Below are positions 25,190 through 51,317 of a stretch of 64,000 nt of DNA, in pieces (positions within the stretch are counted from its first letter, which is position 1; every line of letters begins with the position of its first letter). The notes beneath the pieces are model-generated. The model did no database searches. It saw only the letters and a list, made by a program, of their open reading frames with translations, and had not been told where the DNA came from. Location: assembly GCA_963920765.1 (NCBI GenBank), contig OY987243.1:34595060-34659059 (forward strand). Reading direction: 5' to 3'. The DNA is from Ulota crispa (Eukaryota > Streptophyta > Bryopsida > Orthotrichales > Orthotrichaceae). The translations under genes and the position numbers were made by a program.

Positions 25190-26122
25190 TTAACTCCTAA
25201 AAGCCTCAAACGCTTTTTTTTTGGGCAACATAGCCATTTTGGGTAGCTCACTACCAATGGGTTTTTCATTTTTTTCTTTGGAAATTTCACATATGATGTG
25301 TCCAAGGAGTAGCTTTAAGGTCCAACAATTTTCATAACTTTTGACTTCATGATGCAAAAGTTATTGCATGATATGTAGTTTTCTTGGCTTATCAGGCAAA
25401 CAAAAAAATTCTTTAAAAATTACATTTTAGACTTTTTTGGTTTGAAATTGGTTCTTTAGATTCATATATACATGGGAAGCTTTGAATTATTCCATTTTGA
25501 TCAATAAGATGAAAGTTATGAGGAGATATTATTTGTGAGCAGTTATGGATTCTCTACTCTAAAATACACTTTGAATTACTTTAATTTACTCAATTTTCAA
25601 AAACAAAACCTAAGGATGTGAATTTGTTTATTACAAAATTACAACCATTGGGATTGGCATTGTTCATTTCCATTGTTAAGTTCTTAACAATTTAGTGGTT
25701 TGAATTATTCTCTACTTCTTTTTTGCTTACTATTTTTTTCTCATGTGTTCTACAATTCCAAATGATTTGAAAGTTTTCAAGTGTGTACTCAACTTTCTTT
25801 AAAGAAAAAATTCAAAAAATCACAACCATTTTGGATTTTTTTTCATACAAATATGACCTTGTGAAGTGCAATTGTCTAGATTTTTGCAAGGACAAAAAAT
25901 GGTTTTTTGTCACTTCCAACTCAAATATCTTACAATCTATGTGGTGAAAATTTTTGATTTTTTTCCCTTCTTTTGATACTAATGCTTTTGATACTAGTGT
26001 ACTACAAGATCTTGCAGCTATATGTGTCAAAAAATACTTTCTTCCCTAAAATTTGATACTTGTGGTAGAAATGGCAATTTAATTTGGAGCGATTTTGGTG
26101 AAAACTTAGTGGGACTTTATGG
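25190..26122. mobile_element. TTAA element copy 3, left part (right tip at ~51083)
   Basis: Left TTAA is at 25190-25193, then CTCCTAAAAGCC, a mutated CCCCTAAA end. The interior matches copy 2 throughout. The right terminus is split: GGGACTTTATGG at 26111-26122 is followed at once by the 3' end of the minus-strand LINE, and the same 12 bases recur at 51071-51082 on the far side of that LINE, where the sequence goes on GTAA as the decayed end of the element. The LINE therefore landed in this element's right terminal repeat. Confidence 0.7.
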
Positions 26123-26367
26123 ATAAATGCCTTTTTAGAGGCTTGGGGGCCACGTCCCCGGACACCATTGTGCAATGGTTTTATTTAGAAGTGGAAACTG
26201 GTGAATACATTAGGGATATTGTAATGGTAGGCACTGGATCTTGCGGTGCAGAAGTAGGGCAACCACTCCTTGTAAAACAAATTCTCTAAATCTCCTATTG
26301 CATTTGAATCTTTGACTAATTCATGAAATGTTCTTCATACTGCGGCTCATGCGTGGAGTGTGGCAAC

Positions 26368-28456
26368 CTAGGCATTGGCTAACACTTGTTCACCCCTCGC
26401 TGCCTCCTGCTGGAACCTACTAGCACATTTGGTGGCATAGATTTGCCATAATAAGAAAGTCCTTAGGAGATCCCAAGGCTGGTATAGGTAGACGTACTTT
26501 GAGTCTTTTTCTATTGTGCTGATGTTAAATTGTCCAAGAAGGGCGAGCTCAAAGCTGGTAATCTCTAGGACTCGTCTCCTTCTAGTCATGCAGTTAAACC
26601 ATCTCCACACCTCCTATGAGAAGGGAGAGTTCCATAGCAAATGCTGGAGGGTTTCCAGGGGGGCTAGGTAGAGTGAGCAACCTAGGTGTACTTGCTATTG
26701 CGTGGCCCATCTAAGTTTCTTTCTAGAACTGATACCCTTGTTCAATGCCATCCATATGAAGGTCACTACTTTCCTAGGCCTTGCTAAGTGCCCCAGGATG
26801 CTATGAAAGCGCTTGATTTGAGCTTTTGAGAAGTTCCACCCCTGCAGCTGGAAGATGCTGGTGGGCTTCTCATCTTCCTTCTTTAATCTTATCTTGTAAC
26901 CTCTCTTAGAAGTGTATTGGAAGAAGGGGCTTCGTTTAGCTTCCCTAATTGCTGCCATTCTCACTCTCCTGGGTCCCATGTGAGGTTTTATTGGCTGTTC
27001 CCATGCACGGCCCATATTTTGTTGCGGTCCTGTGGTCTTTGTTTTGGGTTGCAGCTTGTGAAGGAGTGGTGCTCTACTTCCCAAAGGATCACCTGTGCTG
27101 GTTTAAGGGGAAAATGAGGAAGTGGCTAGTTGGGGCTTTCTTCCGTTAATCTGTTGGAGCCATTAACTTGGGTAAATTTTGTTACAGCCGTCTCAGGAGA
27201 GTGAGGGTCATCAAAGTGAAAGAAGCAATACCTACGTGGGTAGTACGTCCAGTCGCCCTTGGACCAGTGGATGGTTTCGTTGCGTGGGTTCCAAGGAACA
27301 TGGCTTATAGCCTTGATGCGCCTCTCTGTTCCTTGGTTTGTGGTCATGCTACGGGGAGGGAATTTCTTGTTAATCTCTGCGATCGAGAGCCAATTTTCCC
27401 TTTTGCTTGACCAGAGATCCATTACTTTGCTCACGCCTGCTTTGGCCCATAGATGGAGACCAATGTTTAGTTCGAACCCCAGGTGTACATCTATTGCTTC
27501 CATGATCTTTGAGTTCCCAAAGAGAGGGTGGCATAAAATTTGCGTTTCAGTAGTTGGTTTGGCCTGCGTAAGCTGTTCCATTATTTGGAAGAAGGCTTGA
27601 AGGCTAGCTTTCATAAATGCTATCTCTTTCTTCTTACGCACTACTTTGTACTGGAAGAGCCAATTGATGGACAGCTGCCACTTCGCGTCACCTATGGGTT
27701 GGCACTGTCCGAGCCTGTGCAACATTAGCGCCTTCCACGGTTTGTCCCCTAGAGTAAGCCCGTGTATGACTAGCTTGGCAGGAGTGCCTGAGTCTGTATG
27801 TGTGGATCTATAAGCTTGATACCTCCCTTTGTAAGTGGGAGGATACATGTCGACCATTTCACATTTGTTGAGCACTTGCCCTCTCCTCGGCCTGACTACA
27901 CATACATCCAGATCAGCAAACATATCTAGTTGCAAATGCATTGGTTCAAGCCGCAACATGCCACAACATACCAACACGTTGATAAAAGAATCTGGTTGCT
28001 AATGAGGACTTTGCCGGCAACTAGCATTGTCTTTGTAGCTTAGCTTCTCAACTTAGCTTTTAGCGTCAGCATTAAAGGTGCTATGTTCATGTCCTTCTAC
28101 AGGTGGGTACTGACTAATGGGCCAAGGTACCAAATCCCTTGGCCATCAATTGCCCGGTTGAGGCCAAGGTACTCTCTCCAAGCAAATTTGCGAGGCTTGG
28201 CTGATGCCCATATGGCAGTTGTTTTAGTTCAATTGACCCTTGAGCCAGATGCCATGCAACAAGTGTTCAAGACTTTTTATGCTTTCTCTAAATTTCTCTT
28301 GGTGCCCTTCACATATAGAGCGGTGTTATCGGTGTACGATGCGTCTGTAAGAGGCATCCCCTTGGGCAAAGTGAATCCCTCAACTTGGTACCTCAGGTTA
28401 TTTAACATGTATCCTAGGGAATCCAACACAACTATAAATAGGAATGGTGCGCGGGG
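26368..28456 (-). pseudogene. LINE ORF2, 3' part: reverse transcriptase to zf-RVT
   Basis: This part continues the reverse transcriptase broken at the CACTA insertion. It begins RAPFLFIVVLDSLGYMLNN and reaches the catalytic box at 28325-28336, which reads YTDN in place of YADD, an inactivating change. A long C-terminal segment (27126-27977) and the zf-RVT region (KVVTFIWMALNKGISSRKKL, about 26700-26800) follow. The last piece, with YLYQPWDLLRTFLLWQIYATKCA (26368-26610), matches YIHQPWDLLCMFVLWQIWVTKCA in the other LINE. Frame changes separate the pieces near 27126, 27084 and 26650. Confidence 0.85.
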
Positions 28457-28485
28457 CACTAGTAGAAACCCTTGTTTTTTTCAAC

Positions 28486-30888
28486 ATTTAACCTTGGACA
28501 TCCATGTTTTTCCAGACGTTTTTTGGCCCAAAACCACTCTAAAAAAACCCTCCAAACTTTTGGACATCCAATTTGCAAACGTGTGTCAAATGTGCAAATG
28601 TTAAAAAAACCAAAAATATGTTTTCTTAGACATTCACGTGTTTATGAACATCAAAATAGACATTAAGATGAATGTCATTAACACTCTGACATTGGGAGTC
28701 GGTTTTACTAAGGGTAACTTTGTGGAAGTTATCCTAGCAATTTGGTGTTCAAAAGCTGTCCAATGTGAAAAAAATTAGCTATAAAAACAACAATGTCCAA
28801 GTAAATGTTTTTTTAGACGTCAACATAAACAGTTTTGCTACCTGGCAAGAACAAACTCTTTTAACTAGGGTAACTTGGGCAAAGTTAACTAGGATTATTA
28901 GGTAAAAATTGAGCTTATTATAAATATGTGACATCTTCTCATACATTTTGCTTGACATCAAAGTTCACGTCTGTGCCAAGGTGGCAAGAATGGGATATTT
29001 TCAATGCAAGTAAATTTTTAACATTTATTTTGTAGGATGGGGTGAAAAAATTGCCCTTTGGTCAAAATTTGGGTTCAATAATTTTGGACGTCTACTGCCA
29101 TGTTAGCCTAGATGTCCATATGAACAAACTTGTTTGGGTGGCAATAATGGGGCAGTTTAAACACAAGTAACTACTTGGAGGTTACTTTGTAGGCTTGGGT
29201 GAAAAAATATTATCCTTCCATAAAAAATTAGGTCGGTGTAGGGGACTTCTATTTGTGTGTCTACATGGACGTCCTTAACTCCTAAATCTGCGAGTGTCCC
29301 CTTGGGGGACAAATGAGATTTTGGGCAGGTACCTATGACTAAACTACTTTGTGTGATTTTTTGAAACTTTTATGGAAGATGGGAAATTCAAAGATCCGTG
29401 TGCACATCTAATTTTTTTTCATTCAGATATTTTTTGAAACTTTTATGGAAGATGGGGAATTTGAAGATCCGTGTGCACATCTAATTTTTTTTCATTCAGA
29501 TATTTTCTGAAGAAGCAAAAAATGAATTTCTGAATTTTTTTTTGGAGATGGGGCAGTTCAGGTAGCCCAAAAGCTTTTTTAAAATTTACATTTTTTTGAA
29601 ATAAAAATCTGAAATTGGTTCTTTGAGTTTACATATACATGGGAAGCTTTGAATCACTTGTTTCTAGTAAATGAAATGAAAGTTATGAGAACTTCTAGTT
29701 AATTGGTAGATATGGAGCCATATCTACCAATTAACTAAAAGTTCTCATAACTTTCATTTCATTTACTAGAAACAAGTGATTCAAAGCTTCCCATGTATAT
29801 GTAAACTCAAAGAACCAATTTCAGATTTTTATTTCAAAAAAATGTAAATTTTAAAAAAGCTTTTGGGCTGCCTGAACTGCCCCATCTCTAAAAAAAAAAT
29901 TCAGAAATTCATTTTTTGCTTCTTCAGAAAATAACTGAATGAAAAAAAAATTAGATTTGCACACGGATTTTTGAATTCCCCATCTTCCATAAAAGTTTCA
30001 AAAAATATCTGAATGAAAAAAAAATTAGATGTGCATACGGATCTTTGAATTCCCCATCTTCCATAAAAGTTTCAAAAAATCACACAAAGTAGTTTAGTCA
30101 TAGGTACCTGCCCAAAATCTCATTTATCCCCCAAGGGGACACTTACAGATTTAGGGGTTAAGAACGTTTGGGCCAAGGTGGCAATAAAGGGACTTTTTAG
30201 CGATAGGTAACTTTTTCAAAGTTACTTTCTAGAATGAGGTGAAATATTTGCTCATTCCAAAAAAGTGCTTGAGAATTTTTTGAGACGTCTGCTTACATGT
30301 TCACTTACACATCCAAATGAACACCCGTCTCAAGGTGGCATTAATGCAACTTTTTAACACCGGGTAATTGCTTGACATTTACTTAATAGGTCGAGGTGAA
30401 AAACTTGCTCCTAGGAAAGACATTCGTCTTGACATTTTTGGACATCCATTCATATGTTTACATAAACGTCAAAATGAACATTCATGACATGTTGAAAATT
30501 ACAGGGCAATTTTACCTCATGTAAATATTTAACAGTTAATTCCCATATTTAGGGTAAACAACTTCCCTACTATAAAGGGCTTCTGCTAAAAACACTCTGT
30601 TGTCTATTACAACATTTGGTAATACGTATAACCAAACAAGTCTGTCATGTTGTTTAGAACATTCATGAAGAGATGCACCTTACCACAACTGTGTTCTAAG
30701 GGCAACGTGTAACCATTCGGTTCAATGTATGTGACTTTCGAGAATAACATCTGTTGCAACATGCACATTTAAATCCTAAACTTGACAATGTCTAAGAAGA
30801 TGTCCAATCTTGCATCCATTGTGACAATGTCTCATACATCGTAAGTGCCTCTATGACATCTAATGGGTTTTTAAAACTCCATCATCTA
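28486..30888. repeat. CACTA left subterminal region with GACGTC/GACATC repeats
   Basis: Short motifs such as GACATCCATG, GACGTCAACATAAAC, GACGTCTACTGCCATGTT, GATGTCCATATGAACAA, GACGTCTGCTTACATGTT and CATAAACGTCAAAATGAACA recur every 100-200 bases in both orientations. Similar sites fill 43.3-44.8 kb near the other end. In characterised CACTA elements such subterminal repeats bind the TnpA-type protein, so that role is inferred here. The palindromic TTAA element sits inside this region. Confidence 0.65.
29275..30161. mobile_element. Palindromic TTAA element (two inverted ~437-base arms)
   Basis: The element at 29279-30157 lies between TTAA copies at 29275-29278 and 30158-30161. Left arm 29279-29715 and right arm 29718-30157 are near-identical inverted copies around a 2-base centre (29716-29717). 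Both termini are left-type ends: CTCCTAAATCTGCGAGTGTC and the inverse of CCCCTAAATCTGTAAGTGTC, followed by the family's GGGGGACAAATGAGATTTTG. Each arm also holds the same tandem duplication of about 75 bases (GAAACTTTTATGGAAGATGG...), so the duplication came before the inverted doubling. It is a foldback derivative of the family seen at 18620, 21869 and 51322, inserted in the CACTA. Confidence 0.9.
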
Positions 30889-33800
30889 TCAATCCTCTTC
30901 TGCAGTTGCTTCCTCCTCTGATCCAATAGCTGTAGCTCTCACAACAGTAGCACCCACATGGGTTGACCTCCTCCTCGGCTCCGTTTCCAATGGGGAGGGT
31001 ATCAGATCTTCAAAGTCAATGTCGTTACCAACGTCAATGATGGCAGGAGGTGGCTGCAATGGATGTGGTGTTATATGTCGGCCTTGGACATTTGTCCTAC
31101 AAATATCCTTCCATCCGTTTCTTTGTGGATTGTCTGAAAGGAATTCTTGCTGGCAATGCAACAGGAAAGCGAATGAGTCAACGTTCACCGAGTTGTCCAT
31201 GTGGTTGAAATTTGCAACACTAAATCCATACCTGTCGTGCTCAATGGTAGAGGCACGTACATCATGCGTGCTCTTCACCCAACTGCACAACAATACCAAA
31301 ATGCAATGATTGCGGTAATCCAGCTCTAGAATTTCTTCAATATATCCCACATACTCCGCGGTTCTTTCGATGGGCCTCCCCCTCCAAACTCCCCATCGCA
31401 CTTGTTTGGTAAAGGTTGCTATGACACATGAATCACAAGTAACAAGGCCCCCCTCTGCGCTTCAAACACAAAAATGACTTCCAAATGAATGCATTTGCCG
31501 ATGCATAATTGTGTACCTCTTTGGTGGGTATGCATACTAAACAATGTCTTCCTCCAATTGTTCCTCTGTTTGTTGCGCATTGCTCAACCAATACCTCAAC
31601 CAATCTGCAAATGGTGGCATCTCATCCAGCTCATGCGAGAACCTGTGTTGTGCATAAGGACGGTTCCAATGAAATTGAAGGCGGTGGGACTCTCGCTCTC
31701 TCCATCTGCGTGTCTTTGCAATTGTGTAATCCCTATAACAAATTCCAAAACACAATATTAAGTGTTTTGATACCCTGGTCTAATTACATATGCCCATTCC
31801 AACATCCACAAACGTCTAATTAAATGTCAAAGTAAACGGGACTTTGAATTCATGGATGCTCTTGTTGATGTCGTTAAGACCGTAAGACACATATGCTGTT
31901 CATGAGGTTGTTTTTGTCAACATCCAACATAATAATTCCCCGAATCCTCTCCACAAAGACTGTGGCTCTAATCTAAGGTAAATTAATTTGTACACCTTTT
32001 ACAACATGTGATTGACTGGATGAAGGCATTCATATTTTGTATCACGCCTACAAAAATGTATACAAAGACAATTTCTTGTTGCAAATGACATTGATTAAAT
32101 ATAATCACAAACAAGAATTTTGCAATGTTTAAAGCGGTTCAACGTTTGCAAGGATGTTAAAACACTCACTCTCTCCATTGCTCTACACACTCCGCATTGT
32201 CATTGACAAACGTGTGTGCATGGCTACGCAGTAAATCCGACATCTTTTGCTTGGTAGTCTCTTTCGGCTTCAAAAGTTCATCATTCATGGTCGGGTCTTC
32301 ATTTGCATCCCACACATGCTGCGTTGTTGTCATGTGTTGTGTCATGTACTCTATACAAAAGCCTAGAGCATCTCCCATGCAATATCCTTGAGCAATGCTC
32401 CCTTCAGGTCAAGCGTAAGTCTTGACATAGTCTTTTGATGTCTTCAAATACCTCTCAATAGGGTACATCCACCTGCAGTGGATAGTGCCACGCATATACT
32501 ACTGCTCCACCAAATGCATGGGAAGGTGGGTCATAATGTTGAGAAATGTTGGTGGAAACTCCTTTTCCAAAGTGCAAGTTGCGTTGATCACATTCTCCAT
32601 GAGCTCCTCTTTGCTATCCTCATATACCTCTTTCTCACACAGCTTCTAAAACACTCAACAAATCTTGATGATTGTTGCGCGTATCTCTTCACTTAAGAGG
32701 TTACAAATTGCTACAGGAAGCACCTGCATACTACAACTCCCCAGAATGTATTTTTATGTCAGCTGGGATGCGTTCTTAAACATCTTAGTGTACACTGCAA
32801 TGTTATGTATTTTATTCTATTTTCACTTCATGCAACCAAAATAACGTCCAATTCTATTAGGCATGTCAATTTCATCATTCAAATCGACATCCACGGATAT
32901 TTCACCATGTTTACCTAGTTGACTACATGTCTTTTAAAACATTAAAAAAGGGGCTAGCAATGAAAATGTATTGACTGACATAGAAGACGAAATACTAGCA
33001 CATCACACAAGATTACCTGTTGCATGAGGATGTGGTAGTCATGAGTCTTCATGTACTAAAGTTTTCCATCCTTCAAACGTTTTTGAATACACCCCACATA
33101 AATTGAAGGAGTGCAAATATTTGATACTATTTGCACAAACTCTTTACGCTTGTTAGGCTTCAAAATGTAGGGAGGGTGTGGCATAACATAGTCTATCCCA
33201 CAACATTGTTTTGGGTGCTCCCCATGTTGGAGCCACAACTTCTCTCAAATCTGTAAATCCTCCACATTGTGGCAACTCCCTGGGCTGTCTTTCATGCCAA
33301 AAAGGGTCTTTAGAATGTTCTCGCAAAGATTCTTCTCGCAATGCATGACGTCCAAAACATGACAAACTATCAAATGCTGTCCATGACAAAGTTATAATCC
33401 ACCAGACAAGACACAACAGCATATTAGTGTCCCTTCTAACTTAAAGACAAGCCGTGCAATGCTATCCAAAACGTTGCAATGTTTTATGTGACTTGCACTA
33501 CAAACACGAATTTTAATATAGTTGTTTCATTAGATGTCCTCCCCAACTTTGCAGTGCTTTGAACTACATAAACAACAAACATCTATTCATGACGTGGACA
33601 TTTTTATAGACATACAGTTTGACATTACAGCGCATCTGATAAAACGACTTTGTAATGGACGCATTTTTGATGAAAAACATGACAATGTCAAATTCCATGG
33701 CTAGATTTGTCTCTAATAACATCACACTCAACAACCACATGTTTCAGTTGTTGTCATTTGCGTTATAACCAGAATCTTATGCATGAATTGAAGTTGTAAA

Positions 33801-35190
33801 ATACATTTATCTACCAATAAAGAAGTTCAAAGAGTGCGCTCAATTGTTTTACGCTGGTGGAATGAATGGGATCATCTCTTGCGTCCTCGCAACCACCCAT
33901 ATCCAAGTAGTTTTGTTACAATGTCGCATGCCTGAGTACGTTTGGTCCCGACATCATTCTTGGCCTTTCCTATTTCTCATTGCGTCTGTAGAATCTACAA
34001 TTATGTCAATATGGGTGTTGTCTATGTAAGTATCTGCGCATTCCACCATACACAATCTTGCTACCCTTCACAGTCCTGTCCGCCAACAAGTCCCCAGTTT
34101 TTGCCATTCAAGAATCAATGTCAAGCCTGCAACTTAGATATCCTCAATAACCTTTGCAGCAAACGCCAGATATCAATCCGTATGCCGGAAAATCAGAGAT
34201 TGTCCACATCAGCATCGCACGCAGGTTGAAACGGCGAGATCCCTTTGGTTGAGAGTAGTTCAACGCTAAGATGCCTCGCCACAAGGTGTGCAACTCCTGC
34301 AACAATGGAAGTATGAAGATGTCAATGTTCTTGGCATTAGGAGATTGCTTGCATGAAATGAAAATGCTGAGAGAGATGAAAAACTTCTTTGTCACAAATC
34401 TTGGCTCCAAGTTGTAGATCAAAATCAGCATTGGCCACATCGACCAGTTTGTGTTGCTAAGCTTGAATGGGTTAACGTCATCTAATGCCAACGCCAGACG
34501 CATGTTTCTCTTCTCAACGCCAAAACTGCCAAAGGCAACATCCGTGTTGATATGCTTCCAAGCAAGGCTGTCCACAACTGAACACATAATGCCATCTGTA
34601 AAGACGTGCTTAGTATAACTAATGAGCATGTTAGCAATTGCCGGCAATCTCCACATTTGTTTCAAACTTAGTATAAGCGGAAAGTGGAGAATGACCTTCA
34701 CTGGTACTATTTTTGTACCCTCCATCTAACGCAATTTCAAACATACGGACATCTGTTCAACGTTGAATGCATGTCAATATAGAGTATGCACCCATCTGAA
34801 CAAGCATGTATGCTGTTGCACTCCAAACCCAATTTGCAAATTTTCTTCTTTACTTCATAACGGCTCTTTGGTAACTTGTTTCCTAGCAGTAACAAATCTG
34901 TTGCCAAGTAATTTAGCAACTAGTTTGCACACTTGTTGCTAATTTCAAAGACCACGCACATGTTCATCAGAACAATAGTAGCAAACACCACACTTGTCTT
35001 CGAACCTATATATAATGGTGTCGAAGCAATGTCATATAGTTCTTGCAACCCGTCCATTGTTTCATCATTCTGGTTGTCGTACTCTAATGTGTTGACATCA
35101 GCCACGACGTCCTCATGTAGTTGGTCAACATGGTTAAAAGCTTCCATGACTTGCCTTTGGACGTTGTGATACTTGTTGTGAGTGCTCAAA
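30889..35190 (-). pseudogene. CACTA TNP2-type transposase, main part (Transposase_21, DUF4218, DUF4216)
   Basis: The catalytic protein of CACTA elements. Going 5' to 3' on the minus strand there is a cysteine segment (IHACSDGCILY, RCPYV; 34737-34830), then Transposase_21 (SLAWKHINTD, MRLALALDDVNPF, WTISDFPAYG; 34144-34725). The C-terminal TNP2 part (ENILKTLF, MKTHDYHILMQ, about 33010-33360), DUF4218 (LPMHLVEQ, RWMYPIERYLKTSKDYVK, PEGSIAQGYCMGDALGFC; 32300-32600) and DUF4216 (YVGYIEEILELDY, YGFSVANFNHMDN; 30889-31401) follow. Stops sit inside conserved blocks, for example after LVEQ and before PEGSIAQG, and frames change between blocks; some gaps could be introns. The N-terminus lies beyond the 3.4-kb insertion, at 38979-38590. 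Confidence 0.9.
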
Positions 35191-38100
35191 CCTCCCCCTC
35201 AAAAAGTAAGCCCAAGCACAACCGGGTTCTAACACAACTGGGAAATGAATTATAACAGCAAGACGGTGGTTTTGGTTGTAGATTTCCAACTAAAGATGCC
35301 TTTCAAGCAATGGATCTTTACTAACAAGCCTACAATATACAATTATGAATAAAGAGAAGGGCAATTCTACTTAATATTTCTCACGTTGGATTTTGGATTT
35401 AATTGAAATAGTCACGTGAAGAATCATACCTCATCATAGGGGTTCACATTCCCTATGCCTTGGTTGTGAACAGCCTCCATCCTTTGGTGATGTGGCATTG
35501 TTGGATCAGCGTATAATCACTCTATTCTTGGGACAAATAATCACAACACTCCAGAAGGTTGGTGGTTCTACCTGTATTGCTGGGCCGGCTTGGATTATCG
35601 CCTTGTGATGAATAATCACAACATAAACTGACTTCTATACTCAAGGATCAAGGATTATCCTAATCCCTTGGTGGGTCGTGGATGTATTCCAAATGCCAAA
35701 AGCTACCCCCTTTCTTGGCCTCTTAATAGAAATATGATGTCTTGTGGTTCTATGCACCCTCTATGACGTCTTCTCAACTCAAGTGAAGGTGGGATTTCCC
35801 CGTGCTTTAGGATAATTAGTTAAATAGTTAACCAAGAGAAGAGGGTGGATGAACTCAATTAATGGTCCCCCCTTCTTAAGTCAGAAATACTCTGAAATTT
35901 GGGAGGCGAACCTGCTGGCCCCACAAAGGCGGAGTTTGAGGCTTGGAGGCAGATTGATACATGTGGTGGGGCCGGGTAAGTGCTAGGGCCAGGTATGGCA
36001 GGGTCCAAGCAGGGGCCAGGGTCTAGGCACGCCTTCCGGCGGCCGTGACTGCGCTGGTGTGGTGATCAAAGGCTAGGGTCGAGAGCTCAAAGGCCGTGAG
36101 CTCCAATTCAAGAGCTGAGAGGGTAGACAGGAGCTCAAGCAGCGTGGGAATGCTGTGAGCTCAGGCTCAAGAGTTGAGAGGGCGACAAGAACTCGAGCAG
36201 CGTGAGAATGCCGTGAGCTTAAGCTTGAGGAATTCAGAGGTGGACAGGAGCTCAAGCAGCGTGAGAATATTGTGAGCTAGACTCGTGAATTTAGCAAGCA
36301 GATAGGGCTCAAGTAATGTGGGACTGTCGAAGCTAGCCTTGTGAATTCAGAGGGCTGACAAGAGCTCAACCAATGTGGGACGGCTGTGAGTTAGACTCAT
36401 GAATTCTGAGGGCTGATAGGAGCCTGAGCAATGTGAGAATGCCAAAGCTAGGGCTTGAGGAATTCAATGGCAAATAGGAGCTCAAGCAGCGTGAGAATGC
36501 CGTGAGCTTAGCTCAAAGAATTAAGAGGGCAGATAGGGCTCGAGCAATTGTGAGACTGTTGTGAGCTAGACTTGGGAATTCAGAAGGCAAATAAGGCTTG
36601 AGCAATGTGGGACTGCCGTGAGCTAGACTCGTGAATTCTAAAGGGCAAGCAAGAGCTTGAGCAGTTGTGAGAATGCCAAAGCTAGGCTCAGGAGTTGAGG
36701 GCTGACAGGAGCTTGTGCAGTTGTGAGAATGCCAGAGCTAGACTCGTGAATTTTGAGGGTAGACAGGGCTCGACCAATGTGGGATGGCCATGAGCTAGAC
36801 TTGAGAATTCAAAGGCAGATAAGGCTCAGCTAATGTGGGACGGCCGTGAGCTAGACTCGTGAATTTAGAGGCAGATAGGGCTTGAGCAATCATGAGAATG
36901 TCGGAGCTAGACTCAAGAATTTAGAGGCAGACAGGGCTCGACCAATGTGGAATTGCCGAAGTTAGGCTCGAGAGCTAAAGGTTGACAGGAGCTTGTGCAG
37001 TTGTGAGAATGCCAGAGCTAGACTCGTGAGTTCTGAGGGCAAACAAGGCTCAGCTAATGCGGGACAACCATGAGCTAGACTCGTGAATTCAGAGGCAGAC
37101 AGGGCTAGGGATGATGGAAAATGCCACGTGCCAAAGGAATTTGTGGGCGAGGCTAGGCCACAAGCAGAGAAATTCAGTTAGCACAATGTCTTCTCAAAGA
37201 GCTTGCTTAGGGAATTAAGGGAGCTGGCCAGTGTGAGGCTGAACTGTTAGGATTCCTTGAGAGATGCTAGGAGGACTTGCGATGCAGTGGTGGGCTGTGG
37301 CGAGGTTCTGGTAAAGTACTGGTAAGCTATCACTACTGGGGCAAGGCTTCTACACACGCGGTAAGGGGTAGCTCTAGGAGGAAGAGACTGGGTATGGAAG
37401 AGTGCAAGGGATCTAACATAAGAGGTGATGAGAGGAAGTGGCAAGAGGAGGATGAAGTGGATGAAGTGACCAAAAGGAAGAGTGTTGGGAATGGTTATAA
37501 AGGGTGGCAAGGGACAAGCGATGATGAAAGTGATACCAAAGGTGATTACAAGTGATGGTTTGGAAAGAGGTGGGCCTCCTTTTATACATTCAGGGGAGGA
37601 CACCTCAGCCCTCTATCTAGGAGATCCATAGATCCCTTGAAATCTACTTAAAATCTAAGAAAACTAAAAAATGGATGAAATCTAGATGAATCCGCCATAA
37701 CTTTTGGGTCATAGCTCCAAACGACAAACAAATGGTGGTATTGGATTCCTTGGACCCAAAATAACCGGTTTTGGTTGTTCACACTCCCAATTCCAAGCTA
37801 CAAGGCGTTGGGAAACTTGAATGAAGGATTAGGGGTAGATGGGTGGAAAACCCAGAATTGGGAATTCATCCCAAATTGAGAAATTGACTTCCCGAGGTCT
37901 TCCAATGTTGTCAAGGGAGCCGGGAAACACTCCTTGCTTCCATCAATTAGGCTCCAAATGGATGATATCTTGAAATTGGATGTCGCGTGCCTTCTTGAAA
38001 CTAGATGGACGTTGTCATTCAAGGTCTTGCCACTATTGAAACGACTTGAAACTTGGGGGATCTTCATAAATCCTTGGGAAACTCTTCTATGAATTTTGGT

Positions 38101-38590
38101 GGCATTTTATTGCCATTTTTCAACCTCCTTTCACTAGGGTGGACTAGTAGCCTAGCAAGGTTAACTACTTGGAATCACGCTCTCTGAAAAGCGGAAGGTC
38201 TTGGAAACCTTGGGTGTGGACGCACCAAATGTTGTTGTCAATAGTTGTTGGGTTGTAAACGGTTGATATGGCCCTTGGCCATGGCTTAAGTAATCAAACC
38301 ATAACTAATCCTCTCTAATTAGGCTAGTGGGGACTTTTGGAGGGGATCCCAAGCCCCTAGTATGTGTATCACTCAAATTGACTAAAAATTACTAAAATCT
38401 CATCAGTTGCTTCTAATGACTTACCAAATGGAGTAGGGTAAATGGCGTACCGCTAACCATTTGGTCTAACTAATCTAAATTGATATAAATGGCTATTCCA
38501 CTTATATCAATGTGATTTTGAAGCTAAGTAAAACAAAAAAATGAATTCAAGACTTTTGGTGCTGAATTTGGGACTCACACTCATCTAAAA
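35190..38590. mobile_element. ~3.4-kb unclassified insertion in the CACTA transposase
   Basis: The transposase reading stops near 38590 (ADEDVVLDE) and resumes near 35189 (STHNKYHNVQRQVMEAFNHV). The block between has no TNP2 similarity, a different composition, and its own minisatellite. Borders are approximate; no clear target duplication or terminal repeat was found. A purine run next to the left border (minus-strand GAGGGGGAGG) and TTTGGTGCGTCC near 38220 (minus) would fit a non-coding retroelement derivative, but no matching end repeats were found. The class stays open. A + strand ORF at 37277-37555 is Gly/Lys-rich and unrecognised. Confidence 0.5.
36085..37105. repeat. ~60-base minisatellite, about 17 units
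   Basis: Units of about 60 bases share the cores GAGCTAGACTCGTGAATTC, GGGCTCGAGCAATGTG and GAGAATGCC. About 17 copies can be counted from the GA(G/A)AATGCC-type core. Neighbouring copies differ by 10-25%, and two sub-types alternate (GTGAGAATGCC against GTGGGACGGCC), suggesting expansion of a two-unit block. It lies wholly within the 3.4-kb insertion. Confidence 0.85.
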
Positions 38591-38979
38591 CAACGTCCTC
38601 GTCAGCGGTTTGGACACCTCTTTCAACACTAGCGTGGTTCACATTGTTGTTGCTAGTGATGTCACAATAGTTAACAATGATGTCATTGTCATATGCCACA
38701 TCTTCAACCCATATACTTTGGGCTGGGAACCCTTGTGGGGATCTCCACCTATGATGGAGCGAGTCAAGATTGGATCTCTATCCACCAACACATGGTGAAT
38801 TCTAATGGTATCAATGCGTCTTGTACGTCCTCCATGACAATCCTTGCATGAATATGGGTAGGCTTTGTAATTATTCTCAATTGCTACACGCAACTCTATC
38901 TACAATATAAGATCACCTACTGGAATGTGCCGTAACTTGCGTCCATCATTTGTGATGTGGACTCTTGCACCGCGGTTGG
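38590..38979 (-). pseudogene. CACTA transposase N-terminus
   Basis: ATG at about 38979 starts MSNRGARVHITNDGRKLRHI on the minus strand, followed by an in-frame stop and then AIENNYKAYPYSCKDCHGGRTRRIDTIRIHHV. That is the N-terminal cysteine/His block usual before Transposase_21 (CxCxxC, then HL). An acidic Asn/Asp-rich stretch follows to the insertion border. It belongs to the same gene as 30889-35190. Confidence 0.75.
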
Positions 38980-41509
38980 ACATACTGGATTGCTACCAAA
39001 CCAGTCCTTGGTTTAGGGTTCATGGTGATGTCCCATATGTTTGCATCTGAGATAGCAATATATAGCAAAACCTATTCAGTGATACATAATATATAACATG
39101 TTTAGTAACTTGTGATGTTGCGCAACTTTCTTAAGTAAAGTCCATGCACATTCAACATACTAAACTAGACATGGAGATGACTGTGCAAATACTCTGAGAT
39201 TGCATGGAAATGTTCTGAAATATGTTCTTTCTCACGTTTGCTGTATATATTAGTTATTAAAACAATTGTCCACACTAACATCAACGTTCTTCTATAACAG
39301 TGCCAATGAAGTTTTTGTCAAAGCTCAGCCATATAGAATCATGGAATGAATATAAAACATAAGAACTAAATGCTTATGACGTAAATATATTAGTTGTCAT
39401 TCCACCTAAATTTAAAATTCCAATGCAATTTTTTTGTATGCATTATCATTGTAATGGATTAGGCAACATGTTGACCCCTACTTAGACGTCATTAACAACG
39501 TACATAGAGGTCATTATTAATTTTTGAATTCTCCATGAAAAATTTATGACCTAAGTATTCCATGTCTATGCTCTATGTACAAGGTGCAGTGCGGTCATTC
39601 CATCACTACAATGGTTTATTTGCAATTTACATTACACGTTTTGGACATTGTAAAGAATCTATAAGTTATATTGATATTGGCATATGCAATATCTCCTGCT
39701 AAAAACCTCCATTTTTGGACTTGGACAAAACATTTACAAGGTTCAATCAATTACGGCTTCTTATTGTATTCACAAAGGATTAAATTCTTATTAAATACTT
39801 TTCATTCCATCACTACCACATCTGTTGTATATGACGTCAACTTTAACAATAGTATGTCTAAGTGGACGTCTTATATGACGTTGTTAGAAACATCTAAGCT
39901 CACATGAACAGTGACTCTAGATAAAATTTAAAGTTCAGCAAATCCATGTGGTTTATTAAATAAACAATTGCATCTTTACAACAATGCGTACGCCTTATGC
40001 AGCAAGGTACCCAAGGTTGCAAGGAAGAGTTGTCTTGCACAACCCTTGCTTTGTGAGAAAAAATGAGGCTTTCAAACTGCAACATGTATTACAAGAGCTT
40101 GAATGCATTACATTACAACAATTCTAGGGTTTGTAGCATAGAAGATTGTATACAACTAGATTTGGAGGTTATAGGCATAGCACTTGCAGCGTTCACAAAT
40201 TTTGTGTTCCAAGTAACTGCAATGGCTCCTCCTACGGCTTTGACCATGCAATCCGCAAGATCCAAGACTAGGAGAGAGGAGCAAGGAATCTTAGAAGAGC
40301 AACAAACGAGAGCTCCGGTGGTTAACAACAACCACCTTTGAGGAGCGGGAGCGGCTAAACGGAGCTGAATAGGGAAGTGAACCACACTAGCGGCTATAGA
40401 GAATGCCGTGGACAACTCCCGCTAGGTACACGGTGGTAGGGTCTGCCAAAAACTTTGTAGTAGATCGTCTTCTTACCATGCCGTCATTTGCTTGAACGCC
40501 ATAATGAGCATCCACAAATGTTGCCATGGTGCGCTAGTTCTGTTGCTAGTTTTGGTTGAATTGGTTATGTGGACGGTGTTCAAGTAGAGAATTGCCAATC
40601 TTTGATAAGTTTGGCTTCAAGCGAGCAAGTAAACTGCAGATCCAATGGTTGTAAACAAGAGCTTCACTGAAGTTTGTAGTAGTTGCAGTGGTGCTTTGGG
40701 ATTATTGTGCACTGAAGCACTTATTGGCAAGATTTGTCATTTCAACCTTGGCGCGCAAAGCAACGTAGGATGGGGAAGATGCCAAATAGCAAAAAGGGGG
40801 TTAGGTTCAAGACTATAGAGATTGGTTCCAAAGAAGATGGCAGTTTTCAAGAGGAGCCTTGACGTTGGCAAAGAAAGGAACTGAGGTCAAAGGCAAAACA
40901 CAATCGTGGAGGATTGTCAACGTCTAGAGGAAAGGTGAAGTTACCTGCAAAGCAGATTGCGCGGACGGGACAGGTGGTCCACACTAGCAAGAAAACAAAC
41001 AACCGCCGAGTTTGAGAAGAGGAGTTGGAGGAAGAGAGGTAAGGATCAACATCTACAAGTTTTTTGTAAATGAAGCGTTGGTCATGTCTCGCCTGTCTAC
41101 TAAATCAAGGCACTTTGAGGATTAAATTTTTTGCTTCAGAGGACGTTTAGTTGGACATGTAGGAGTCTTTGGACAACACCAATTGAAGAATCCTAAGCCC
41201 CGCATATTGCTAATGAACTTGCTTGTGCGTCCGGGAAACCAAGTTTAGGTAATCTAACCTCCAAATCTTCAATTCCTACGGTAAACACCACCATATTGAT
41301 GGCACACGGGGGGATTGTGTAGTTGTCTGAAACCTCAAACTTGCATCTGCAAATTAGACATCAGGCTTCTAGATTCTACTCTAGAGAGAGTAGTGGAAGT
41401 ATATTTAATGATTTTGTTGATTCATTGCAATGTGTAGGTACTAAATTGTATTTGGGACTTGTAGGCGGTGAAGTTCAAAGTATTTGGTGGATTAATTGAT
41501 GGTCATACA
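38980..41509. other. CACTA 5' side, no recognised gene
   Basis: Sequence upstream of the transposase start inside the CACTA. A less AT-rich part at about 40200-40560 has a minus-strand open stretch starting ATGGCAACATTTGTGGATGC (47 codons, to TAG) with no known match. It could be the start of a second (TnpA-like) gene or the promoter. No domain can be named. Confidence 0.35.
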
Positions 41510-42500
41510 TAATGATTGTATTCAAGACTTGCTAGGGAGGGGAATTCTTTAAATTTATGAAAAATAATGGATTCTCAAATGTATTGCTTGTATTCGGGAC
41601 TTGCAAGAGGGGTGTTGTTTTTTTTTTGGTAGATTTGATTGACTTGGGTATTCTCGAATTAGTATTCGTGAGTCACAAGAAGGCCAATTTTTCAATTTTT
41701 GTTTGTTTGATTGATTTGAAATGCCCATGGTTGTATTTGGGACTAAGTGGGGACGGGTGTTTTTTTAATTTTTGTAAATTTCTTTGACTTGGGTATTCTT
41801 TGATTAGTGTTTGTGAGTCATGAGAAGGCCAAAATTTTGTTTTTTGTTTGTTTCATACATTGGAAATGCTAGGTTGTATTTGGTACATGTGGGGAGGGGT
41901 GTTTTTTTAATTTTTGTGGATTTGATTGACTTGGATAATCTTTGATTAGTGCTCAAGAATCACCAAAAGGCCAAGTTTTCATTTTATGTTTGTTTGATTG
42001 ATTTGAAATGCTTGGTTGGATTTGGGACTTGTGAAGAGGGGTGTTTTTTTAATTTTTGTGAATTTCATTGACATGGGTATTGTCTTATTAGTATTTGTGA
42101 GTCATGAGAAGACCAAAATTTCATTTGTTGTTTATCTGATTGATTGGAAATGCTTGGTTGTATTTGGGACATGTGAGGAGGGGTGTTTTTTTAATTTTTG
42201 TGAATTTCATTGACATGGGTATTCTTTGATAAGTATTTGTGAGTCATGAAAAGGCCAAAATTTCATTTTGTGTTTGTTCAATTGATTGGAAATGCCCATG
42301 GTTGTATTTGGGACATGTCGGGATGGGTGTTTTTTTAATTTTTGTGGATTTAACTGACTTGGGTATTATGTGATTAGTATTTGTGAGTCATGAGAATGCC
42401 AATTCTTCATGTTTAGTTTGTTTGAATGATTTGAAATGCCCTGGTTGTATTTGGGACTTAGTGGTAGGGGTATTTTTTGTGTGGATGTAATTGATTGGGA
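41510..42500. repeat. ~145-base tandem repeat, about 6.5 copies
   Basis: A unit of about 145 bases recurs, each copy with GTATTTGGGACTTGTG, GAGGGGTGTTTTTTTAA, TTGACTTGGGTATTC, GTATTTGTGAGTCATGAGAA and TTTGATTGATTTGAAATGC. Copies start near 41590, 41740, 41880, 42020, 42160, 42305 and 42450. Two overlapping ORFs here are repeat artefacts. It lies within the CACTA. Confidence 0.85.
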
Positions 42501-44880
42501 TATGCACTCATCTATATTCTTGACATAGTTGGGGACTATTTTTTGATATTTTGTAGGGTTCAGTCATGTCATATGTACTCACATGTATTGGGTCCTCTTT
42601 GCTTTTGGATTTAGAAGATTGGCGTATTAAAAGTTTGCAATGATGTAGTTGGGTTGCTATTCCTGTTGCATAGACATTGTATTTGGTGTTTGTTGCTCAG
42701 TTTGTTGGGAGAAGTGGGTTGTTTTGTTGTAGACTCCTAAACTGTATGCCTCGATGATGTTTGTCGTTTTGGATGGGTTGTTTGACACCCGCCAATGTTT
42801 TTATCTAGTCAAGTAAGACAGTTATGTAGGTTTGAACGTTTTTGTGGATGTAACTTTTGCGATCCCAAACATTTCAGTGTCTTTCCCTAATTATGTCTAT
42901 GGAAAACCTTGCTAGCAAGGACTTTGAAGAGGGCAAAGATTGTGCAATAATTTTTTGTTTGTGAAATTGGTGACACTTGATGGCATGATGGATGTCATGT
43001 GCAGCACGCGAGGCCCCTATTTTCCATCAAAATGGCTCTTGCATTGAACATCATTGCCAGCACCGAACATGACATTAGTCTTATTATCATTTGCTAGACT
43101 CTTCTCTTTATATGAGGAGGTGTAACACACTCTCTAGACTATGGTGGACACATGGACTTCTATATGTGTATTTGGAGATATTTAATTATGTATTGAAGTA
43201 CGTTTTGTTTGTTGCCTTCAATGGAAGTTGCTTGACTAATATCTAGAAATTGCAACTCTTACTAGCTGTAGTATAACTAATTCAAGTGCTACAGACGTTT
43301 GGATAAATGTTGATGTGAATGTAGTATGGTCAAGCAGTCACCCAATAGAACGTCACATTGGACATTAATAGAAGGTTATTACGTGTCAATTCCATCATAT
43401 CAAGATCATAGGCGACATCTGTATGGTCAAGACTGACGTTATGTTGATTGTCTTTTTGAACACAAGGTTACGTTCAATACACTAATAATTATCTCTATAG
43501 AGACGTCGTGATGAATAGTCTCCGTGAATGGAAATATCAGGGTAGTCATTTAGTTGGTCTTGTATATGGTCAGAGTAACATATTTGAAAACAGAAGATGA
43601 CGTAAACAAACATCATTGGAATACTTCAAATGTTGTTGTGAGCATCTATGTGGACAAGTTTAGCATTGTCACGGACGTTAGAGCAGACGTTCCTCTTTAT
43701 GCGTAACGTCACTAGTAACATTTCCAATAACAAACCAAAGGACGCAACGTACATGCTGGATGACGTAAAGGTAGACATATTAAGAATAGGGATTATTGCC
43801 ATAAATGACAAGGAAGTCATGGAAACAGTCATTCAAGGCGTATTCAATGATATCGTGATTGTCCTGAATTGTCGGTGCTATTGTCAAAGTTTATATTGCT
43901 TTAGACGTCTCTGTGCATGTTTTTCTGTATTCCAAGACATCTGAACAAACACCTTTCAAACATGGAGCAAAGCTAGTGAGCATGCATTCGATGACCATAA
44001 AGGCACTTAGGTCATGTATTTGGTTGTCTAATAAAACACATTTTTTCAAACAAGGTGTCATAAGAGTTGTCTGAACAAATTATGTTTTGTGTTAACGCAC
44101 ATGAAAATCAACACAATTTTTGATTATCCATGTTCTCTCCAACATTGAGGGAGACAGTAATAATGTCCATTTGGAATGCCATTTTGATTTATTGGACTTC
44201 AATGATGACATTGCTTGTTGTTTATTGAGGCATTATTGACCTTTTAACCCCCTAGATCTTATGTTTAACGAGAGGTTATTACATTTTATTTGACATTGAT
44301 GTAAACGTACGCATCATTTTGTTGAAAAGAAGAGTATTGACGGGGGCGTTCAAGAAAACATGCATTTGGACATAGTCATATAAGATTTTATGTTTTGATT
44401 TTCACCTTAACTATCAAAGTTGATGTTTTTTTCTCATTGGTTGACATTTAGTTGGACATCAATTTAGATGTTTTTTACAATTTTGAAATTCTCAAAATAG
44501 ACAACATATTTGTCTGCCATGTCAGATTTTGAAGACCGTGCATGTCAAATTTTATGTTAGAATTGGGCCGGATGAAAAATTCTCTGACAAGATGAAACTT
44601 TTGAGAGGGGCTGCCTTTAGAAGGTTTTTTATTATTCCCATAGGGCAATATTTCTTTGGACGTCCACAAAAAAACATGTGCATGTCTTTTCAAATTTTTG
44701 GATGTTTTTTTCAATTCTCCTAAACGGATTTTTTTATACATCCAAGTAGACGTGAAAATCGTGAAATACGATAGGGTAGAGACATTTTTGGAGACATTGT
44801 CAGGTTGAGAGGAGCGCGCCTTGGGAACACGTAGGGTGTCTTGCTGCAATTGTGCATTGCTGATTAAAATTGTCTTTAGT
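42501..44880. repeat. CACTA right subterminal region with GACGTC-like sites
   Basis: From about 43300 to 44780 the sequence is filled with GACGTC, GACGTT, GACGTAA and GACATC sites in both orientations, for example GACGTCGTGATGAATAG, GACGTTAGAGCAGACGTTCC, TGACGTAAAGGTAGACAT and GGACGTCCACAAAAAAACAT. This mirrors 28.5-30.5 kb at the other end. The short ORFs show no known domain. 42501-43300 shows nothing recognisable. Confidence 0.6.
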
Positions 44881-44989
44881 CTCGATCTTCACTCTTCATG
44901 TCTTCAAATCTTCATGTTTTAATAAAAACAATGAAGAAAATCACAAATAACAAGTCCTAGAAAGGTTGTGGCCTCTTTCTAATGCCACA

Positions 44990-45870
44990 AATGGCTCAAA
45001 AATCCAAATACTAAGTGTAATAGCAATTTGAAAAGCTCTTCTAACCTTCTAACATTCCTCTAAATTTCAATTTAATCTAAGCTATTGTCCAAAAGTTATG
45101 TGGGTTCAAAGTAGAGGCTCTTTTTCCTCCTTGCAAACTAAATACAGCCTCTCTAAACTTCTATGACTTTTGTTCTACACATCACTCATAGAAATGTAAT
45201 ATCAATGTGAAAAGATAATATCACTTGCTAAAACTCTTAAAATTTTTATTTCAAAATAAAATTTTCTCCAAAAATTATAGTCAATCAAAGTGTAAGTCTC
45301 AAATTTTTAGAGAGCACCAAAACCTCCAACTCTTACATATTATAACTTTTTCAGTAAGACTTCAAATGGAATGATTAAAACCAATACAAAAAGCTATGAC
45401 AACAAACTATTACTTCTAAAATTTTGAAAAGCAAATTTCATACTGTCCAAAAATTGTAGCTCTTCAAAGTTTTGGCCTTCTCACAACAAAAGGGCAGCCA
45501 CTTCCAGTCCTTCACACCTCCATAACTTTCTCTTCTAAGCTCTAAATCTTAAGTTTAAGAATTTTCTAAAGAGGTAAAACTAAGATAAACATTCTTTTCA
45601 AATCTTATTGCAAAATGATATGTAAATCATAAGCAATGGCTTGTCAAAGTCTCAGCTTTTCTTCATAAGTTTGGCTTTTTGACTCTAAAATTCAAACACT
45701 CATAACTTTTGCATCACAACTTCAAATCAAACTTGCAAACTCATTTTAGAAAGGTAATCATACAAAGAACAATTATTCCAAATTTCAATTGAAAATCATG
45801 TATTCACAAAAAGTTCTTTTCCATCAAAGTTTTGGAATTTCTTTCTTCTTATCAACACTCATACACTAAC
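44990..45870. repeat. Degenerate ~180-base tandem repeat
   Basis: A phrase TCCAAAA(A/G)TTNTNG followed by TCAAAGT and a pyrimidine-rich stretch recurs near 45091, 45270, 45440, 45625 and 45805, about 180 bases apart. Copies are very diverged. It is non-coding and lies inside the CACTA. Confidence 0.45.
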
Positions 45871-46129
45871 TTCTAACAACTAAATAATCTTTCCTCCATA
45901 ATTTTGACCATATCTAGGGTAAGGAGGTAGGACACATCAGCCCATGTTCCTCTTTACCTTAACCTCACCATGGATGCCAAACCCCTTTTCCTTTCACACC
46001 TTTCCCATTGACTTCTAAATCCTTAGTATTTTTTATTCAAACAAAGGCAAAATATATGAGCCTTCCAAAACATCTAAATAAACATATAAAAATAATTAAA
46101 TTACAGAATAAACACCACCATAAAATGGC

Positions 46130-46430
46130 CACGTGCTCTTGCAAGCATATAATAGCATCAAACGCTTGTCTTCAGTCGTCAAGTCGTAGACTTGGTTGGC
46201 TGGAGAAGCGATCATCTCTGGCCGCCCGCCGGTCCGGATTTGAATTTCATTGGACTCGTCGAGCGGCGATGGCGGCCTACGGCTTGGCAGTTAGTAAAGC
46301 AGGAAATTGGCCTAGCCAACCCGCTACCTACCCTTTGAGCTGTGCATGTGACAAGACAACGCAGTGCACTAAAATCTATGGCCGCTGCGCTGTCACCAAA
46401 CCGTGGTCTTCACTACAACTATCCATTTTA
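46130..46430. promoter_or_regulatory. GC-richer patch near the CACTA right terminus
   Basis: Around 46190-46400 base composition changes sharply to GC-rich (GGCCGCCCGCCGGTCCGG, TCGTCGAGCGGCGATGGCGG). It lies about 150 bases inside the right terminus, upstream of the minus-strand transposase. It may be the element's promoter and 5' leader, since subterminal GC-rich leaders are known from Spm. The + strand ORF over it (46008-46451) has no recognisable domain. Confidence 0.4.
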
Positions 46431-46544
46431 CCACAACTGTTAATTTATTGAAATCAACATAAACATAAATAAATAACAAGTATCTACATGATAAAGAGAT
46501 CTCCATCAAGAGAACGTTGAAAAAAACGGGGGTTTCTACTAGTG

Positions 46545-48565
46545 GGAGCATCCCTGTCTCACCGATCTCCCTAAATCAAAGCTGTCTCCCGTTTCTTCAT
46601 TTAAGACGACGCTTGAGTTAATATTCTTGTACAGGGACATCACTACTTTTCAAAATTCCATGTTGAATCTTTGAGCTGTCAATATGTCTTCCATGAAATG
46701 CCACTTGATTTTGTCGTAGGCCTTTTCAAAGTCAAGTAGTATGAGCGCAAGGTCTTGATTAGAGTTCTCAGCATAATGTATTATCTTTTGTGCTAGAAAA
46801 ACATTGTCCAAAATGCTTCTGCCGTATACAAATTCTGTCTGGTTAGAGCAAATGATGTCAGGTAGTATTGTTTAGATATGGCAAGCTAAGACTTTTGCTG
46901 TAATTTTGTAGAATGCTCCAAACAGCGTGATTGGACTATAGTTGGAGATTAAGCACGCGTTGCTTCCCTTGTGTATCAAGGTGATGATTCCTTGATTATG
47001 TTTTCTACTCAATTGTCTCAAGTTGAATATCTCTTGTATAGCCCGTGTGAGAATTTGTGCATTGTTTAGGTCTTTTGTGTCGGTTTTGTAGAAGTCAATG
47101 ATGATTCTATTGAAGCTTGTCGCTTTTTTGCTAGGTAAGGATTTGATGGCGTCGCGGACCTTATGTAGAGTGACCGGTTGTGTAAAAAGATCGTTGTGAT
47201 TGTTAGTCACTACTTGTGGGAGACTTTTGAGGACCTCTGCCTTGGCTTGTAGAGTCTCTAAGGTTTCTCCGTTAGAAGTGTATAGTCATCGATAGAAGTC
47301 CGTGACTGCCATAAGTTCCTTGCTTTGTGTCGAGATCAATTGGTCATTCACCAGCAATTGAGGAATGTTGGTGCATTTCCAGTAGTCTCTATATACCTTG
47401 AAAAAATCTTTTGTACAACAATCACCCTTCCTTGCCCATCTCGCTACTTGCTCGTGGTATCTTTTATCTAAAATATCTATAGTTAGCTTATGCACTTTGG
47501 TCTTTGCTTCATTGAGTAGTTCCGTGGCTATCGGGTCTCCTGAAAAATTTGTTTGGTATGGTTCTATGCTCTATATTTTGTTGAGCGCTTCTTGTTTGTC
47601 CTTGTATTTCAGCGCGTTAAAGTCTTTGGTGACTTGCCCCGATACTCGGACTGCTCTCACTTGAGCTTGGACGACCCAGTCGATCCAGGATCGCCTTCCT
47701 TAGGTAGTGGCGCGTCCTGCTAAGCTATGTCGATTGTATGTGCCTTGGAACCATATAGGGTTCTTGCCTTCATGCACTGTCTCACTCTTCTTTTCCTCTC
47801 AGGGAGGATTCTGAGGGTGACAGGGGCATGATTAGATATTGGTGTGTGAGGCGAAATGGTGTGGTTCCCGCCTTGGTTGCATAGATTGTATGAGCCGTAG
47901 ATCCTATCAATCCTGGCTGCTCTGTGAGATGCCATGGTTTGGTTGTTGTCTCACGTGTAGAGTTTATTTGAGGCTTTGTGGATCTAGTCTGAGTGAAAGG
48001 TGTTTGAGATGCCATAATGGTTAAACAATCTAGACCATGCCGTGAGCTCTCGTTGGTATAGCGTAGAGCATGTTCTTGAAGCACCCAATCTGTTTTTGGG
48101 CTCCTCCACCATGTTGAAGTCTTTGGCAAGGACAAAGGTATCACCTTGTATATCTGCTTCAATGAGCTGATCCCAGAGCTCTAGCCTCTTGAAGGCGTTG
48201 CACGGAGCGTATACGTTAAGTAAAACTAGGGAGGCTCTACCATCCTCTATTAGGCGCACGTATTGTGCTTGTTCTAGTGAGATGATTGCTTCCTCTGTAA
48301 TGAAGTAGGCTAAGGTCGGAGCAACAAGGATGGCTGTCCTTGCCCTCCAGTGTACGCAATCTCCCTCCATTGTTGCTAGATTCTAAGCCTTATGTCCACC
48401 AGCAAAAAGGGGACTTTTATTGTTATTTCTGCATTGCGGCTTATGCATTCAGTGTTCTTGGAGTAAGATTATGTTTGGAAGTGCTTCCATCTTTTTGAAC
48501 AGCCTCTGTATGTATACTTGTTTTTTAGCACCATTGGCCCTGCTACCAGAGCCTCTGATATTCAT
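46545..48565 (-). pseudogene. LINE ORF2, 5' part: endonuclease and reverse transcriptase
   Basis: ATG at 48565 begins MNIRGSGSRANGAKKQ, a usual start of the APE endonuclease, with IILLQEH following. LVLLNVYAPCNAFKRLELWD and FVLAKDFNMVEEPKNRLG (GDFNMV normally) identify the endonuclease, and ARIDRIYGSY with ISNHAPVTL its end. The reverse transcriptase starts VRDAIKSLPSKKATSFNRII, with LISNYSPITLFGAFYKITAK and the catalytic ILLDFEKAYDKIKWHFME (46713-46733 covers DFEKAYD). It breaks at RQGCS where the CACTA begins. Stops follow LLQEH, HKA and NMEF, and the frame changes near 47950. Confidence 0.88.
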
Positions 48566-50786: not shown

Positions 50787-51070
50787 TTCTTGTGACTTCT
50801 AAGAGCGTGTGGGACCTCAGCCGAGGCCACTATATAGCTCCTCACTAAAGCCTTGTAGAACCATGTCAACTTTCTTGTTCTTGAGGAATTTCCTGTTCAC
50901 TTTTATCGTGGTTGCTAACTTTAGTAAACAATTTTCTGTGCCTGCTACTAAACGTGTGAGAATCTATGGATTGCTGCGCAAATAACTGTCTGAAATTGCT
51001 CTTGCACGCTCAAAATCCTAACCCTAATGGAGCTTGGAGCTTGAGCGACAAAGGAGAAGAGTTTGCATTT

Positions 51071-51317
51071 GGGACTTTATGGGTAAATAAGTTTCAAAGT
51101 TTTTAACCCCTCTTTAGTGAATGAATGCCTTTGGCACCTCCAACCTTATTTGTTGATAAATTGAAAAGCCACTGCAACTAATTTCCACTTGTCCAATTTC
51201 CTTACTTCATTTTGACTATGACTACATAAATACTAAAATATTGGGTGAAAGAATGGATGAAATCCTCAAACCCCCCTCATAAAAACGTACTAGTTTGACA
51301 ATACTTGGATAGATTTA
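51071..51317. other. LINE target-site copy, end of TTAA copy 3, short spacer
   Basis: 51071-51082 is the second copy of the 12-base LINE target site. GTAA after it is taken as the decayed right end of TTAA copy 3. TTAACCCCTCTTTAG at 51102 resembles another left end of the same class with no visible partner. Confidence 0.5.

Follow-up and report, generated by a model that had tools for sequence, protein, structure and literature searches.

Nested transposable elements (TEs) are well described in plants, where they are ordinary. A survey of 12 plant genomes reports 1491 nested LTR-retrotransposon pairs (PMC6911290). The nests presented there resemble the one analyzed here in that younger elements lie inside older ones and the order of insertion is taken from the nesting; unlike them, the present nest stacks several element types and has an empty-site paralogue for each nested join. 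The superfamily piggyBac is named among the MITE superfamilies of angiosperms (PMC10004981) and among plant superfamilies (PMC10794571); the corresponding wording in PMC10619864 is "piggybacking."

We analyzed a 64,000-nucleotide stretch of the Ulota crispa genome (274.8 Mb in 157 contigs), referred to as the window (G000:C2:34595060-34659059). At one locus within it, six mobile elements are nested to a depth of four levels, and empty sites for every nested level are supplied by paralogues within the same genome. The nest almost certainly records at least six separate insertions. A previous reading made without database searches (the sequence-only reading) had described five layers; instead, there are four levels, with three of the elements being siblings inside a CACTA transposon. 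Its coordinates proved nearly exact, except that a LINE duplication was taken to be 12 rather than 13 bases long and an insertion at 44798-46513, the sixth element, was overlooked. In the surroundings, 10 to 16 kb from the nest, the window encodes a MIR-domain protein (9161-10039, plus strand) and an LRR-rich frame with a kinase frame after it (11694-14986, minus strand; receptor-kinase-like). The window proteins, i.e., a tnp2 transposase, the LRR frame, and the kinase, were plant-like. An NCBIfam search returned nothing useful.

The outermost element (level 1) is a TTAA element spanning 25190-51087, with a net length of ∼0.94 kb (25190-26122 plus 51083-51087). It starts at the TTAA at 25190-25193, and the LINE interrupts it just a few bases from its right end. 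This end lies at 51086/51087, as had been proposed, where the window reads GGGTAAA (51081-51087), i.e., TAAA versus TTAA in the relatives. Its right flank (51088-51309), searched alone, had no match elsewhere in the genome. A query that joined 25183-26122 to the sequence from 51083 on yielded 39 scored places besides the window, out of 5993 first-look candidates, with 80 to 85% identity over the main stretch. Alignments extended 2 to 10 bases beyond the join at 15 of the 39 places and ended 3 to 172 bases short of it at the other 24. The left piece of the window itself aligned 6 bases past the join as well; BLAST ends beyond it were therefore rejected as weak evidence, and an unjoined query ending at 26109 was used in their place. 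Among the 19 relatives fetched (L038 to L056), 18 were unbroken at the LINE site and continued up to a terminal TTAA (TTTAGGGGTTAA-type end), bearing out the claim that the LINE had split this element; the exception, L038, reads AGAGTTGA at that end.

The second level is an L1-like LINE on the minus strand (26123-51069; net ∼6.9 kb). Direct reading showed it to be flanked by an exact 13-base target-site duplication, tgggactttatgg, with identical left (26110-26122) and right (51070-51082) copies. A full-length paralogue (C10:3216516-3223349) is colinear with it from end to end, the two halves being 74% and 71% identical. This paralogue and a further copy on contig C9 each have their own duplication: approximately TACACTTTACAATTTG (one mismatch in 16) on C10 and TATGTGATTGTG (12 bp) on C9. 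Because all three copies have a 5′ stretch (GGAGAAGAGT) and a 3′ end in common, the window LINE is a full-length insertion. A poly(A) tail is absent at its 3′ end, and the three copies finish with ..GGCAT plus a few bases; for lack of the tail in all three, the element is filed as L1-like only.

Protein evidence for the LINE is weak because its reading frames have decayed, and all of its matches lie below curated cutoffs. The joined fragment matched RVT_1 at 14.9 bits (cutoff, 29.6), and the same stretch of the C10 copy gave no RVT_1 match. Another fragment had weak similarity to human L1 ORF2 (E 0.034) and, at E 0.017, to the RNA-directed DNA polymerase 8c8j. A piece of ORF1 weakly matched DUF4283 (17.5 bits) together with a zinc knuckle, and none of six further pieces matched a Pfam family. 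These partial resemblances, along with variable duplications of ∼12 to 16 bp in the three copies, are shared with plant L1-clade LINEs, from which the window copy differs by its missing poly(A), its ..GGCAT-type 3′ ends, and its subcutoff protein matches. The window also holds a second, decayed related LINE in the opposite orientation (54900-57380), which is 64 to 69% identical in two blocks and matches RVT_1 at 22.5 bits (cutoff, 29.6).

Within its putative reverse transcriptase region, the LINE is split by a CACTA transposon on the minus strand (level 3; 28457-46544), with a footprint of 18,088 bp and a length of ∼12.1 kb net of its three inserts. Size and position agree with the 18.1-kb CACTA of the sequence-only reading, and the C10 LINE paralogue is colinear across the site. 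The terminal inverted repeats (28457-28488 and 46513-46544) have CACTAG ends and are 91% complementary over 32 bp. At 16 other places the left end was found again; 15 of these begin exactly at the base corresponding to 28457, one matches only part of the interior, and paralogues are up to 90% identical at this end. The 3-bp duplication flanking the window copy has one mismatch in three (GGG at 28454-28456 and GGA at 46545-46547), and other copies show CGT/CGT on C6 and TCT/CCT on C7, both ends on one contig being taken as a single element in these two cases. The interval between matching anchors measures 13 bp in the C10 LINE paralogue and 16 bp in the window flanks. As this spacing equals that of the window minus 3 bp, C10 supplies the empty site without the CACTA duplication. 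It had also been proposed that removing the CACTA plus one triplet restores the LINE frame, and this removal indeed produced a single frame of 103 codons with one stop (..SVRQGCSRAPFLFIVVLDSL.. in the window, ..SVRQRYLLAPFLFIIVLDSL.. in the C10 copy); the paralogue reads alike over this stretch and likewise has one stop.

Six pieces of the CACTA region were scanned. One matched Transposase_21 (PF02992, tnp2-type; 34147-34725, minus strand; E 1.4e-37; 129.4 bits versus a cutoff of 28.6), one matched DUF4216 under the cutoff, one gave an irrelevant weak match, and three gave nothing. With its CACTAG ends, 3-bp duplication, tnp2 transposase, and weak DUF4216 piece, the element resembles CACTA (En/Spm) transposons; it departs from them in its broken-up transposase frames and its three inserts. 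No further large inserts were seen in the paralogue alignments: 30800-35176 is a single alignment in at least three CACTA copies, 38580 to ∼41061 is continuous in two, and 39385-44281 is continuous in one C5 copy. A 142-bp tandem array (41607-42478) was rejected as an insertion, since the same array is present in CACTA paralogues and is therefore native to the transposon. The array occupies a longer stretch in the C5 paralogue, and the number of its repeats seems to differ from one CACTA copy to another.

The first of the three inserts (level 4a) is a palindromic TTAA element at 29275-30161, with TTAA on each side (29275-29278 and 30158-30161) and an inverted repeat of 96%. It belongs to a large family, with members in at least 40 places (40 scored out of 6101 first-look candidates). 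Thirteen of 15 CACTA left ends continue across the site, and the other two end before it. All eight CACTA copies that were fetched show the empty join, confirming that the element lies inside the CACTA; the join consists of one TTAA in four of them and of ATAT in the other four.

The second insert (level 4b; 35177-38579) is a 3403-bp solo-LTR-like unit of the TG...CA type, which begins TGTGAGTG, finishes GGACTCACA, and includes a minisatellite at 36118-37103. The sequence-only reading had recognized a ∼3.4-kb insertion with a minisatellite but considered it unknown. The insertion and the minisatellite were both recovered, the former at exactly these coordinates, but the unit can be characterized as one with TG...CA ends and 5-bp duplications. 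All four CACTA copies inspected (L014, L015, L017, and L019) were without 35177-38579, and the empty site in L014 reads CTCGT versus the flanks CTTGT and CTCAT in the window. In eight units for which both ends were available, the number of flank bases alike was 3, 4, 5, 4, 5, 3, 4, and 4 of 5. This amounts to 32 of 40 bases, compared with a permuted mean of 13.5, and only 2 of 50,000 permutations scored as high; two of the eight units, the window's included, have just three of five flank bases alike.

The third insert (level 4c; 44798-46513) is a 1716-bp TGTC...GAGA unit located 31 bp from the right end of the CACTA and flanked by the 4-bp sequences ACAT and ACGT. Its relatives end in GACA or GATA versus GAGA in the window. 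Alignments to two CACTA copies on C5 skip from 44799 straight to 46514, the two segments overlapping by 6 bases, and base-by-base reading of four fetched CACTA copies found all four to be without 44798-46513. The empty site reads ACGT in L074, L075, and L077, and its comparison with the window gives a 4-bp duplication. Among 40 scored places (of 1150 first-look candidates), 31 match the 1.7-kb stretch alone, at 82 to 86% identity. Across eight copies, a 4-bp duplication is weakly supported, with 21 of 32 flank bases alike versus 16.6 in permuted data (1206 of 50,000 permutations as high) and with only one of four flank bases alike in two copies. The weakness of this signal is partly due to the copies' preference for an NCGT target, the left flank ending in CGT in five of the eight.

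Solo LTRs are the most likely identity of the two TG...CA units, and the 3.4-kb unit is best read as one. TG...CA termini accompanied by a 5-bp duplication are characteristic of LTR ends, and the 3.4-kb unit has both. Each unit would then have been left behind when LTR-LTR recombination deleted the middle of a retrotransposon, a step of which we are less sure. As in solo LTRs, no transposase or polymerase gene was seen; the 3.4-kb unit differs from solo LTRs in its length and its minisatellite, and no LTR-internal-LTR parent was found for either unit. The 30 bases past the right end in 13 of the 3.4-kb copies have, by eye, nothing in common, so none of these copies resembles an intact element's 5′ LTR. 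Two arrangements on C2 were rejected as composite elements. A 13-kb element with 3.4-kb units as its LTRs is contradicted by the separate duplications CCCCC/CCCCT and ATGGG/ATGGG, which indicate two insertions, and two inverted copies are not the terminal inverted repeats of one element, as each unit has its own duplication. The same-orientation units L058 and L059 (C2:16075700-16089600), ∼6.2 kb apart and each with its own 5-bp duplication, could pass for one long LTR element.

It is plausible, though less likely, that the 3.4-kb and 1.7-kb units are instead self-complete noncoding mobile units placed by a retroviral-type integrase. In favor of this, all eight units examined have their own flanking duplication, and the same-orientation pair 6.2 kb apart represents two separate insertions. 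The target preference of the 1.7-kb unit points the same way, as does the outcome of a search for tRNA-Met primer-site patterns beside the ends of both units (one pattern each; 0 matches). Perhaps the 1.7-kb unit is a Ginger-like DNA transposon, since Ginger transposons have TGT ends and 4-bp duplications. Against complete units stands the LTR-end signature itself; moreover, few of 728 first-look candidates were read at both ends, and a single primer site was tried. The fuller proposal of two families of complete noncoding units moved by a retroviral-type integrase, the 1.7-kb one favoring NCGT, is quite unlikely; if true, two element families not yet described would be present in the nest, within a piggyBac-rich genome.

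The two TTAA elements are compatible with piggyBac-type transposition. The genome contains at least 120 matches to PF13843, the piggyBac transposase family (from 116 scored of 528 candidates), and one such frame, which reaches the window edge before any stop, lies in the window itself (3-848, minus strand; E 1.7e-51). The elements share with the piggyBac superfamily and its MITEs the TTAA duplication, short terminal inverted repeats, and the presence of transposase genes in the same genome. They differ in that their ends are unmatched to a transposase-bearing copy and in the nearly perfect palindromic structure of the inner element. At nine piggyBac transposase loci, eight of them with just 1.5 kb of flank, no paired ends of the TTAA elements were found, and the one loose end-like match (10 of 12 bases) points away from the transposase. 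The lack of matching ends would suit an origin from another superfamily that duplicates TTAA, such as Kolobok. Such an origin is nevertheless unlikely given the abundance of PF13843 matches, the location of TTAACCCTTTA ends near one piggyBac transposase (L092, the locus with the loose match), and the C(C/T)CCTAAA starts of the elements, which resemble piggyBac ends. A piggyBac-type transposase remains the probable source of mobility.

An assembly chimera, in which unrelated repeat copies were misjoined and the nest is absent from the organism, is scarcely credible: although every element is a repeat, palindromes and arrays are difficult to assemble, and the judgment was made from the assembly itself, paralogues are continuous across all five insertion sites, contrary to the assembly error that the sequence-only reading had named as its possible refutation, and each nested join has, besides a paralogue that lacks the interruption, a flanking duplication whose length suits the family concerned (13 bp, 3 bp, TTAA, 5 bp, and 4 bp), a pattern that random misjoins would not produce.

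The order of insertion at the locus is TTAA element, LINE, CACTA, and then three inserts without order among themselves. The sequence of TTAA element, LINE, CACTA, and inner TTAA element in the sequence-only reading is upheld by uninterrupted paralogues at each site. The genome search for empty sites that it had suggested found them for the LINE (18 of 19), the palindromic TTAA element (8 of 8), the 3.4-kb unit (4 of 4), and the 1.7-kb unit (4 of 4), with C10 providing that of the CACTA. It follows that TTAA-type insertion took place both before and after arrival of the CACTA copy, as had also been claimed. In the scenario we propose, a nonautonomous TTAA element, itself directly observed, came first and was probably moved by a piggyBac-type transposase. 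A full-length L1-like LINE next inserted near its right end, leaving the observed 13-bp duplication, presumably by target-primed reverse transcription as is general for LINEs. The CACTA then entered the putative reverse transcriptase region of the LINE, with the 3-bp duplication as its visible trace. The palindromic TTAA element, the 3.4-kb TG...CA unit with its 5-bp duplication, and the 1.7-kb TG...CA-type unit with its probable 4-bp duplication are three later arrivals in the CACTA.

The order is relative only, and the nest yields no ages in years. Identities to the nearest relative were 74% for the LINE, 83% for the outer TTAA element (full length), 90% for the CACTA (left end), 86% for the 3.4-kb and 1.7-kb units, and 93% for the palindrome (in part). 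They are compatible with the insertion order but are no clock. The nest is ordinary TE biology and involves no new principle; it is unusually easy to read and cleanly demonstrated. With an empty site for each nested level within one genome, it constitutes a clean worked series of insertion order and is useful as a test case for TE annotation and nest-resolving software.
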